Source: Nitrosomonadales bacterium (GTDB lineage Bacteria; Pseudomonadota; Gammaproteobacteria; Burkholderiales; Gallionellaceae). From it: a DNA stretch of 64,000 nucleotides. The position numbers and the translations under genes are program-made. The notes beneath the pieces are model-generated. The model saw only the letters and a program-made list of their open reading frames with translations, ran no database searches and was not told the DNA's origin. Positions 50,610 through 53,745 of the stretch are shown piece by piece. Positions within the stretch are counted from its first letter, which is position 1, and every line of letters begins with the position of its first letter. The DNA lies in contig JANYJE010000009.1 of the NCBI GenBank assembly GCA_025408405.1, positions 1 to 64,000 on the forward strand. Direction: 5' to 3'.

Positions 50610-51176
50610 ATGACTATCAAATCGGACAAGTGGATACGCCGCATGGCGGAGCAGACAGGCATGATTGACCCGTTTGAACCGGGGCAGGTGAAGGAAGTCA
50701 ACGGCCGGCGCATCGTGTCCTACGGCACGTCGAGCTACGGTTACGATATTCGTTGCTCCACCGAGTTCAAGCTGTTCACCAACATCAACAGCACCATCGT
50801 GGATCCGAAGAATTTCGACCCGAGCTCCTTCGTGGAAGTGAACCACGATTTCTGCATCATCCCGCCCAACTCGTTTGCCCTGGCGCGCACGGTGGAATAT
50901 TTCCGCATTCCGAGGAACGTGCTCACCATCTGCCTGGGAAAAAGCACCTACGCGCGCTGCGGCATCATCGTCAACGTCACGCCCTTCGAGCCCGAGTGGG
51001 AAGGTTATGTGACGCTGGAGTTTTCCAACACCACGCCCTTGCCCGCCAAGATTTACGCCAATGAGGGCGTGGCACAGGTGCTGTTCTTCGAGTCCGACGA
51101 AGTGTGCGCAACCTCGTACAAGGATAGGGGCGGCAAGTATCAGGGGCAGCATGGCGTCACCCTGCCCAAGATGTGA
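50610..51176 (+). CDS. dcd: dCTP deaminase Dcd
   Basis: This 188-residue trimeric enzyme converts dCTP to dUTP for thymidylate synthesis. [37 protein letters not shown] with catalytic Glu in FEPEWEG, and the C-terminal [20 protein letters not shown] are diagnostic. It lies 4 bases after apbC. The pathway links to thyA, found 4 kb away on the opposite strand. The cloverleaf-like palindrome begins 5 bases after its stop. Confidence 0.95.
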
Positions 51177-51180
51177 TTTG

Positions 51181-51241
51181 TGTAGGAGCCCGATTCATCG
51201 GGCGATTGCGAGATAATCGCGCAACCAGTTGCGCTCCTACA
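51181..51241 (+). repeat. Cloverleaf-like palindromic element (outer stem plus three hairpins)
   Basis: An outer stem TGTAGGAGC (51181-51189) / GCTCCTACA (51233-51241) is perfect over 9 bases. Inside it three perfect hairpins follow back to back: CCCGAT/ATCGGG (51189-51202), GCGATT/AATCGC (51202-51220) and GCAAC/GTTGC (51221-51232); the first and second share one base with a neighbouring stem. The GTAGGAGC ends resemble REP-type elements of Proteobacteria. It sits between dcd and the decarboxylase leader and could end dcd transcription. Confidence 0.8.
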
Positions 51242-51244
51242 GTT

Positions 51245-51253
51245 TGGTAAAAT
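51245..51253 (+). promoter_or_regulatory. Extended -10 element for the decarboxylase leader
   Basis: TGGTAAAAT (TAAAAT at 51248-51253) lies just after the palindrome. No -35 is evident at 17 bases. Transcription from here would give about 95 bases of leader before the small ORF at 51357. Confidence 0.4.
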
Positions 51254-51356
51254 AAGTTCAGGATGTATCCTGATTTTCGTGCAAATCCTCCCGTAAATCT
51301 GCGACAATCCGCGCCTGTGAGCTGCCAGGCAGCGTTTCTCCATTAGGAGTTTACTT

Positions 51357-51461
51357 ATGAAATTCAATTTTAGTTTCGGCATCACATTGGCCTTGGGCCA
51401 ATATGAGCCTGCACTGAAGTTGAATTTCTACAACGCATTTATTCAGGTGCATCAGGTTTGA
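51357..51461 (+). CDS. 34-residue leader peptide upstream of the amino-acid decarboxylase
   Basis: ATG 51357 has a strong AGGAG (51345-51349) 7 bases upstream. The peptide begins MKFNFSFGITLALGQYEP and ends ALKLNFYNAFIQVHQV; the stop at 51459-51461 is 31 bases before the decarboxylase ATG. Its first five codons match those of the decarboxylase (MKFNF), as if copied from it. The length equals that of E. coli SpeFL, the ornithine-sensing leader of speF, but the SpeFL HIRR motif is missing. Codons 21-24 (AAGTTGAATTTC) form the switch segment described in the next entry. Translation seems likely from the ribosome-binding site; the regulatory role is inferred. Confidence 0.65.
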   Translation: MKFNFSFGITLALGQYEPALKLNFYNAFIQVHQV

Positions 51462-51506
51462 TGTCGTTTTTATTCCCCATTAGAGGGCTACTATGAAATT
51501 CAACTT
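51359..51506 (+). promoter_or_regulatory. Mutually exclusive RNA stems controlling the decarboxylase start
   Basis: Segment AAGTTGAATTTC (51417-51428, codons 21-24 of the leader ORF) is a perfect 12-base complement of GAAATTCAACTT (51495-51506), which overlaps the decarboxylase start codon. The same segment can instead pair with GAAATTCAATTT (51359-51370) at the leader start, with one G-U. A 7-base hairpin ATTGGCC/GGCCAAT (51386-51402) lies within the first structure. Ribosome position on the leader would choose between the two. The complementarity is seen; the switch is inferred. Confidence 0.6.
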
Positions 51507-53745
51507 TCCAATTATCATCATCGACGAAGATTTCCGCTCGGAAAATTCCAGCGGGCTGGGCATACGCTCGCTCGCCGATGCCATCCAGAAAGAAGGCATG
51601 GAGGTGCTGGGGGTGACCGGTTATGGCGACCTGACTTCATTTGCGCAGCAGCAAAGCCGCGCTTCCGCCTTTCTGCTGTCGATCGATGACGAGGAATTCG
51701 GTTCGGGCAGCGAGGAAGATACCGAGCTGGCCTTGAAAAGCCTGCGTGCCTTTGTCGCGGAGATCCGCCACAAGAATGCAGACATCCCGATTTATCTGCA
51801 CGGCGAAACGCGCACCTCGCGCCACATCCCCAACGATATTCTGCGCGAGCTGCACGGCTTTATTCACATGCACGAAGACACGCCGGAATTCGTGGCGCGC
51901 CACATCATCCGCGAGGCCAAGTCCTATCTGGATACGCTGGCGCCGCCGTTCTTCCGTGCGCTGGTGAACTACGCGCAGGACGGTTCCTATTCCTGGCACT
52001 GTCCCGGGCACTCCGGCGGCGTGGCTTTCCTGAAGTCGCCGGTGGGGCGCATGTTCCACCAGTTCTTCGGCGAAAACATGCTGCGCGCCGACGTGTGCAA
52101 TGCCGTGGACGAGCTGGGTCAGCTGCTCGATCACACAGGCCCGGTGGCCGCTTCCGAATTGAATGCGGCGCGCATCTTCAATTCCGACCATCTGTATTTC
52201 GTGACCAACGGCACCTCCACCTCGAACAAGATCGTGTGGCACTCCACCGTGGCGCCTGACGACATCGTGGTGGTGGACCGCAACTGCCACAAATCGATTT
52301 TGCACGCCATTATCATGACCGGTGCGGTGCCCGTATTCATGACGCCGACGCGCAACCACTACGGCATTATCGGCCCGATTGCGCTGAACGAATTCAGCAT
52401 GGAAACGATACAGCGCAAGATCGACGCGAACCCGTTCATCAAGAACAAGAAGCAGAAGCCGCGCATCCTGACCATCACGCAAAGCACCTACGACGGTGTG
52501 CTGTACAACGTGGAAACAATTAAACAAATTCTGGACGGAAAAATCGACACGCTGCATTTCGACGAGGCCTGGCTGCCGCATGCCACCTTCCACGATTTCT
52601 ACCGCGACATGCACGCCATCGGCCGCGACCGCCCGCGCGCGAAAGATTCGATGATTTTTTCCACGCAGTCCACGCACAAGCTGCTCGCCGGTTTGTCGCA
52701 GGCCTCGCAAATCCTGGTGCAGGACAGCGATGCGCACAAGCTGGACCGCGACTGCTTCAATGAAGCCTATCTGATGCATACCTCCACCAGCCCGCAATAC
52801 GCCATCATCGCCTCATGCGACGTGGCTGCCGCGATGATGGAGCCTCCGGGCGGCACCGCGCTGGTGGAAGAATCCATCGCCGAAGCGCTGGATTTCCGCC
52901 GTGCCATGCGCAAGGTGGACGCGGAGTTCGGCGCCGACTGGTGGTTCAAGGTATGGGGCCCGGAATATCTGGTGGAGGAAGGCATGGCCTCGCGCGATGA
53001 CTGGATACTGCACGCCAACGAACGCTGGCACGGCTTCGGCAATCTCGCTCCCGGCTTTAACATGCTCGACCCGATCAAGGCCACCATCATCACCCCGGGG
53101 CTGGAGGTGGAAGGCGATTTCGCCGATTCCGGCATTCCTGCGGCCATCGTCACCAAGTACCTGGCAGAGCACGGCGTGGTGGTGGAAAAGACCGGCCTGT
53201 ATTCCTTTTTTATCATGTTCACCATCGGCATCACCAAGGGGCGCTGGAACACCATGGTGACCGAGCTGCAGCAGTTCAAGGACGATTACGACCAGAACCA
53301 GCCGCTGTGGCGCGTGCTGCCGGAATTCATTGCCAAGAACAAGCGCTATGAAAAAATCGGCCTGCGCGACCTGTGTGAGCAGATACACGGCATCTACAAG
53401 GCCAATGACGTGGCGCGCCTCACTACCGAAATGTATCTGTCTGACATGGTGCCGGCGATGAAGCCGTCCGATGCTTTCGCCAAAATGGCGCACGGCGAAA
53501 TCGACCGCGTGCCGATCGACGACCTCGAAGGCCGCATTACCAGCGTGCTGCTCACCCCCTATCCGCCGGGCATCCCGCTGCTGATCCCGGGCGAGCGTTT
53601 CAACAAGACCATCGTGAATTACCTGAAATTTGCACGCGACTTCAACCTGAAATTCCCCGGCTTCGAGACCGATATTCACGGCCTAGTTGCGGAGAAAATC
53701 AACGGCGAGAAGATCTACTACGTGGATTGTGTGCGCCAGGCCTGA
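51493..53745 (+). CDS. PLP-dependent Orn/Lys/Arg decarboxylase (group III)
   Basis: This 750-residue protein has an N-terminal wing domain (about 1-125, response-regulator-like fold). The PLP core shows SWHCPGHSGGVAF, FVTNGTSTSNKIV, VVDRNCHKS, LHFDEAW and Lys396 in FSTQSTHKLLAGLSQAS, the expected PLP lysine. The C-terminal domain has PYPPGIPLLIPGE and FPGFETDIHG. Such enzymes make agmatine, cadaverine or putrescine, for acid resistance or polyamine supply. The length is closest to inducible arginine decarboxylases, but the substrate is not decidable by eye. The leader ORF precedes it and a strong terminator follows. Confidence 0.92.
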   Translation: MKFNFPIIIIDEDFRSENSSGLGIRSLADAIQKEGMEVLGVTGYGDLTSFAQQQSRASAFLLSIDDEEFGSGSEEDTELALKSLRAFVAEIRHKNADIPIYLHGETRTSRHIPNDILRELHGFIHMHEDTPEFVARHIIREAKSYLDTLAPPFFRALVNYAQDGSYSWHCPGHSGGVAFLKSPVGRMFHQFFGENMLRADVCNAVDELGQLLDHTGPVAASELNAARIFNSDHLYFVTNGTSTSNKIVWHSTVAPDDIVVVDRNCHKSILHAIIMTGAVPVFMTPTRNHYGIIGPIALNEFSMETIQRKIDANPFIKNKKQKPRILTITQSTYDGVLYNVETIKQILDGKIDTLHFDEAWLPHATFHDFYRDMHAIGRDRPRAKDSMIFSTQSTHKLLAGLSQASQILVQDSDAHKLDRDCFNEAYLMHTSTSPQYAIIASCDVAAAMMEPPGGTALVEESIAEALDFRRAMRKVDAEFGADWWFKVWGPEYLVEEGMASRDDWILHANERWHGFGNLAPGFNMLDPIKATIITPGLEVEGDFADSGIPAAIVTKYLAEHGVVVEKTGLYSFFIMFTIGITKGRWNTMVTELQQFKDDYDQNQPLWRVLPEFIAKNKRYEKIGLRDLCEQIHGIYKANDVARLTTEMYLSDMVPAMKPSDAFAKMAHGEIDRVPIDDLEGRITSVLLTPYPPGIPLLIPGERFNKTIVNYLKFARDFNLKFPGFETDIHGLVAEKINGEKIYYVDCVRQA

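Follow-up and report, generated by a model that had tools for sequence, protein, structure and literature searches.

Why does an amino-acid decarboxylase gene in a Gallionellaceae genome follow a short open reading frame and two competing RNA stems, and does this arrangement control the enzyme? The locus lies in a 64,000-nucleotide stretch of contig JANYJE010000009.1, hereafter the window. Its first-pass annotation described a 34-codon leader with an AGGAG, 31 nt ahead of the decarboxylase, and proposed that the leader peptide senses an amino acid or polyamine. The leader, its AGGAG and the 31-nt gap (51462-51492, with the decarboxylase ATG at 51493) are all present as claimed (Table 1). All evidence below comes from sequence, and many of the genomes named are metagenome assemblies.

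The enzyme sits after dcd and apbC, with metG on the opposite strand. It is single-copy in the window's genome and was found in 144 of 158 family genomes. NCBIfam models for arginine and lysine decarboxylase scored alike on it, both below cutoff; the best PDB match was 6q6i, labelled biodegradative arginine decarboxylase.

Within the leader, the 3′ arm X′ (AAGTTGAATTTC) is an exact 12-nt complement of the decarboxylase start (51495-51506) and, with one G-U pair, also complements the leader start (51359-51370), as the first-pass annotation had read it. None of 1000 Markov-1 simulations produced an exact complement of 12 nt linking the leader to the decarboxylase start. Folding of 51320-51540 gave z = -3.53. 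The predicted fold joins the 3′ arm to the leader start (-35.9 kcal/mol over 51357-51433), and when the leader start was left out of the folding, the arm formed 13 bp with the decarboxylase start. As the same X′ segment serves both pairings, the two stems are indeed mutually exclusive. The leader's opening codons (ATGAAATTCAATTT) proved to be a copy of the decarboxylase's own (ATGAAATTCAACTT), a duplication missed in the first-pass annotation. X′ complements both starts because the one start copies the other.

Table 1. Positions of the leader, repeat and decarboxylase features in the window.
Feature	Position	Strand	Details	Basis
Leader Shine-Dalgarno	51345-51349	+	AGGAG	sequence; alignments of filled and empty sister genomes
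Leader ORF	51357-51461	+	34 codons; ATG start; stop TGA at 51459-51461	
Leader make-up	within 51357-51461	+	MKFNF, then element-coded SFGITLALGQYEPALKLNF, then tail	comparison with relatives' leaders
Upstream copy of duplicated decarboxylase start (X5)	51357-51371	+	ATGAAATTCAATTTT	sequence; sister alignments
Hairpin repeat core	51368-51419	+	TTTTAGTTTCGG...CACTGAAG	model of copies; off-locus pair counts
3′ arm X′	51417-51428	+	AAGTTGAATTTC; leader codons 21-24	common to both mutually exclusive stems
Likely decarboxylase Shine-Dalgarno	51482-51487	+	AGAGGG	read from sequence
Downstream copy of duplicated start	51493-51507	+		sequence; sister alignments
Orn/Lys/Arg decarboxylase (OKR_DC_1)	51493-53745	+		profile searches

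Decarboxylase upstream regions were read in 130 genomes, and presence of the element was counted over 127. A hairpin of ~50 nt after a copied start occurred in 36 of these regions and was absent from 91, with alignment scores of at least 28 in the carriers vs 15 or less in the others; a few low-scoring regions resemble degenerate copies. Nine of 11 comparisons between filled and empty sister genomes showed a clean insertion after codon 5 with a duplicated start of ~15 bp, and two comparisons (G011/G010 and G138/G124) aligned poorly. In the nine clean cases the empty sister carries the promoter and Shine-Dalgarno directly before the enzyme ATG, and the alignment runs as far as the copied start, the point at which the insert starts; the stretch matching the leader's AGGAG there directly precedes the decarboxylase ATG. 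On the decarboxylase tree (FastTree, 127 rows) presence requires 24 changes, at least 19 of them on well-supported branches, and was more clustered than shuffled labels (mean 31.8 changes; 1 of 500 as low). Spacing to the enzyme start is ~71 nt in most decarboxylase-locus copies, which suggests either that the insertion is old and was precisely lost many times between the repeated starts, or that it was exchanged. Two tandem units, each a copied start plus a hairpin, precede the decarboxylase in G036 and G051 (L144, L148).

The inserted hairpin is one copy of a dispersed repeat of ~50 nt, composed of TTTTRGTTNCGRCATMAC, a variable stem-loop and KTKAGYCTNCACYGAAA. A model built from the 36 decarboxylase-locus copies recovered many copies elsewhere; once these turned up, a decarboxylase-specific RNA element was dropped as an explanation. 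The pattern CATMACN{3,30}TKAGYCTNCACYGMA had matches in 100 of the 158 family genomes, with no genome exceeding 17, and its reversal, used as control, gave 0 matches; an earlier, narrower pattern with 3 mismatches allowed had given one control match. An order-wide draw of 399 genomes yielded matches in 55, of which 10 came from its 13 family members and 45 from the remaining 386. Copies away from the decarboxylase are often tandem, at gene ends or beside tRNAs, and lie in either orientation to genes. At L295 and L296, tandem copies stand beside a tRNA gene, with the tRNA-side sequence partly repeated in each unit. Beyond the core, each locus has arms of its own, which by eye frequently match the end of the adjacent gene; such matching at other loci could be a by-product of insertion. 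In the copy at L302 and L307, between genes that we take to be groES and groEL, the end of the upstream gene recurs in inverted form as the outer arm.

How the repeat moves was approached from several sides. No transposase tied to it was found, and Y1_Tnp counts did not follow copy number: G091 and G092 had 0 Y1_Tnp matches, yet 11 and 7 element matches. These counts lend a RAYT link no support. An autonomous transposon carrying the hairpin was also considered and not adopted; the copies compared in G177, G054, G199 and G302 share stretches of ~30-280 bp (532 bp in one G199 pair). A search of IMG/VR for a viral vehicle returned 0 matches to one pattern variant. In some G054 contigs (L375-L379), identical-core copies adjoin a GGGCACCTC-type repeat. 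The G054 copies presumably lie within another MITE, and there the hairpin may hitch-hike with another repeat. In the open-access literature, searches that included exact sequence strings found no earlier description of the hairpin repeat.

An internal loop with 3-4 nt on each side and a bulged A are conserved in the hairpin; its terminal stem-loop varies widely among copies. Across 31 distinct off-locus rows, pairing is kept in 97.6% of cells, and both partners have changed in 77. Covariation was 0.364 vs 0.137 for shuffled and 0.010-0.061 for slid partners, in an alignment itself fitted to the model. Two of five off-locus measures did not rise above shuffles, namely pairs with both partners changed (8 vs 7.0) and further pair types (13 vs 15.1). 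A conserved loop and bulged A between covarying stems would suit an RNA aptamer or a protein-binding hairpin, which would then act as a cis-regulator wherever it lies. We consider this improbable, as copies occur in either orientation, at gene ends, beside tRNAs and inside coding genes, and the core has no Rfam match. The Rfam search found nothing at E ≤ 1 for 50900-51800, and on 18 off-locus loci only tRNAs exceeded gathering scores.

The copies inside coding genes bear directly on the leader peptide. At 20 of 23 loci the repeat lies in the open frame of a conserved gene (10 glyQ, 6 purL, 2 argF, 1 uup and 1 nuoF). The 23 loci were chosen (17 for one loop type, three from the window's own genome, three noticed earlier) and do not give a rate; none of the 20 in-frame copies is from the window's genome. 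Genes were named by eye from flanking peptides, with one locus per gene checked against NCBIfam: the glyQ and argF loci scored above cutoffs, and purL, uup and nuoF, whose frames are incomplete, below. In these genes of relatives the in-frame repeat codes for about FGSDITPASGHESSPKL, close to F-(S/G)-S-D-I-T-P-A-S-G-H-E-S-S-(L/P)-K-L. In the same repeat frame, the decarboxylase leader reads S-F-G-I-T-L-A-L-G-Q-Y-E-P-A-L-K-L.

In glyQ, the gene for glycyl-tRNA synthetase alpha, ~20 in-frame residues follow the first few codons (L343, L355, L389, L394, L395, L397, L400, L401, L403, L404), and L394 and L423 resemble tandem coded copies. With an insert-bearing glyQ as query, the gene was located in 145 of 158 genomes; among the best 30 loci, 22 contained the core by a permissive regular expression (one doubtful), and three had an uninterrupted MLTFQQIIL. 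The repeat adds 54 nt to purL, counted by eye. In reverse orientation it forms an open N-terminal extension starting MKT on unrelated proteins at four loci (L308, L306, L292 and L340), of which L292 (G000:C19) is in the window's own genome. As fragment queries, two of these loci matched ammonium transporter and homoserine dehydrogenase models below cutoff, and a DsbC-like one matched no model; the fourth is a putative sensor protein.

Would the leader then be a sensor, its nascent peptide stalling the ribosome with an amino acid or polyamine and the alternative stems reading out the stall? The position before a decarboxylase, the length of the reading frame and the mutually exclusive stems fit such a device. 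However, the conserved residues of the peptide belong to the repeat and recur in glyQ, purL, argF, uup and nuoF. The HIRR motif is absent from the window's leader, which has no family match, and leader tails vary among relatives. Aligning the upstream regions of relatives, as the first-pass annotation proposed, further argues against an essential sensor, with 91 of 127 genomes lacking the element. The likeness it saw between the leader's FYNAF ending and FFNAR found no support: the NF in it comes from the 3′ arm, and leaders vary at this place, with near-FYNAF endings in a few (NFYSAF in G092, NFYRAM in G157). Amino-acid sensing by the leader is thus unlikely, and with the peptide's conserved residues being those of a dispersed repeat, we dropped it as the main reading. 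A stall-sensing leader now seems to us very improbable.

Regulation by translation of the leader is a separate matter, on which its reading frame is informative. Among the 40 genomes in which a leader start was located, 17 have a leader stop that overlaps the decarboxylase ATG, and in 7 the leader ends 1-2 nt before that ATG. Of 34 ATG-to-ATG distances, 23 are 2 mod 3 (83, 128, 131, 134, 137, 140). In the 19 long spacers of this phase the leader frame is open in 17 (other frames: 8 and 8). Spacers of other phase, the window's among them, have it open in 0 of 9, and all 28 long spacers together in 17 (other frames: 12 and 13). The window's leader has no ATGA overlap, its stop lying 31 nt upstream of the decarboxylase ATG. 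Tails differ between relatives, with differences weakly skewed by codon position (160/219/249). Close relatives (e.g. G136, G151, G154) enter the counts as separate genomes.

The 3′ arm provided a second line of evidence. In permutations of arms over 32 of the 36 genomes, with relatedness ignored, X′ paired with its own decarboxylase start better than with permuted ones: 0 of 5000 permutations reached the observed value in the MKFNF group (13 genomes), and 3 of 5000 in the remaining 19. No such signal was found between X′ and the leader start (4550 of 5000 and 810 of 5000, respectively). At codon 4, for example, AAC faces GTT, AAT faces ATT and AGG faces CCT. Tree-based independent pairs ran in the expected direction at three wobble columns (4.0 vs 0.5, 2.2 vs 0.8 and 4.0 vs 0.3), none significant among the columns listed. 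Eleven of 36 genomes pair X′ strongly with the decarboxylase start (-8.7 kcal/mol or lower), and in 23 of 36 the arm was equalled by more than 5% of its 200 shuffles.

Could all of this be a neutral scar? The repeat would have inserted, the duplicated start would keep the enzyme expressed, and leader and stems would regulate nothing, the patterns reflecting insertion and shared ancestry. We rate this as a serious contender, at somewhat less than even odds. It accommodates the absence of the element from 91 of 127 relatives with 24 changes on the tree, pairing that does not exceed shuffles in most copies, outer arms that by eye match host sequence at unrelated loci, and the modest excess of open frames when all 28 long spacers are pooled (17 vs 12 and 13). 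It accounts poorly for a leader frame open in 17 of 19 vs 8 of 19 spacers in the phase that reaches the enzyme start, for distances that mostly change in threes, and for a 3′ arm that tracks the decarboxylase start and not the leader start. The first-pass proposal of a translated leader with alternative stems stays plausible, given the open frame in many relatives and the covariation of the arm with the decarboxylase start. On conservation of the stems the signal is mixed: the arm tracks the decarboxylase start, but strong pairing is limited to about 11 of 36 genomes and the permutations ignore relatedness.

Our preferred reading, with a probability of about 0.74, is that the leader is an inserted coding hairpin repeat bounded by a duplicated gene start, which would explain the layout better than a sensor does. 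This figure weighs three steps; since the rival readings agree on what the repeat is and disagree over its function, the figures overlap. The identity of the repeat and its insertion appear very secure, and translation of the leader coupled to that of the enzyme is somewhat probable, whereas a switch in physiological use is doubtful. The repeat lies just after codon 5, and behind it the start of the gene is present once more. The ancestral promoter, Shine-Dalgarno and ATG thus now open a short reading frame, and the enzyme can be made from the duplicated start. Insertion at a start gives the order arm, core, complementary arm and copied start, and therefore mutually exclusive stems.

Ribosomes on the leader may then affect the enzyme by coupling. 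A ribosome crossing the 3′ arm would free the decarboxylase start from it, and in many relatives would terminate right on the enzyme's start codon (ATGA). In the window the 12-bp pairing is perfect, and a ribosome held on the leader start would therefore let the 3′ arm cover the enzyme start. This reading requires no ligand. A selfish coding palindrome is the most likely nature of the repeat, its insertion having produced the switch-like layout by accident, with partial retention afterwards; selection may have kept the coupling in many lineages. More tentatively, and we hold this a doubtful extension, a mobile coding hairpin of free-living bacteria might build gene-control switches. At a gene start it would duplicate the start, the ancestral start would become that of a translated leader ending on the new start codon, and the 3′ arm would co-evolve with the new start, giving a translation-coupled on/off stem; elsewhere it would add ~20 in-frame residues to conserved enzymes.

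In ribosome-mediated attenuation and translational coupling, two mutually exclusive stems form, one covering the downstream start and one inside the leader. The leader described here has the same two-stem layout, and its stop falls on the next start codon in many relatives. It differs in that the layout comes from a duplicated start around an inserted hairpin. SpeFL of Escherichia coli, which precedes speF, reportedly also has 34 codons and carries the HIRR motif. It is described as an L-ornithine-sensing arrest peptide (PMC8429421). Both are short reading frames before an amino-acid decarboxylase, but the leader here is repeat-derived and lacks HIRR, and nothing points to a ligand.

As a repeat, the element resembles REP/BIME sequences in being a short dispersed palindrome, often tandem or mosaic and at gene ends. 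In contrast to these, it has few copies (at most 17 per genome by pattern), also lies inside coding genes and has no evident GTAG/CGTC tag of the kind described in PMC3733652. Closer parallels are the Rickettsia palindromic elements (RPE), in the account of PMC10969869 hairpin repeats of ~150 bp, reported from Rickettsia, that lie between and in frame inside unrelated genes and encode a conserved peptide. By that account the present repeat is similar in being dispersed, hairpin-forming and in frame in unrelated genes with a similar peptide. It differs in its shorter core (~50 nt vs ~150 bp) of apparently another sequence, in its host range (the window's family plus others of the same order), and in that it can sit between copies of a duplicated gene start and so open an upstream reading frame. 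On description, we file it as RPE-like and not as an RPE.

In the same source, in-frame fusions by intragenic MITEs are described as no rarity, with mention of BOX, ERIC, QMITE1 and cases from Anabaena (PMC10969869). Coding palindromes are also described in hairworm mitochondria (PMC6649704) and as PARCELs (PMC2996958). Going by these descriptions, the present repeat appears set apart by a fixed core combined with a freely varying terminal stem-loop. In-frame palindromes with the same peptide in unrelated genes are, going by PMC10969869, best known from Rickettsia. A shorter and structurally distinct in-frame repeat in relatives of Gallionella and Sideroxydans implies that such coding palindromes are not limited to bacteria living inside cells. 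With 36 filled and 91 empty genomes among 127, the decarboxylase locus provides a natural series for how one insertion yields a leader reading frame and a stem that can hide a start.
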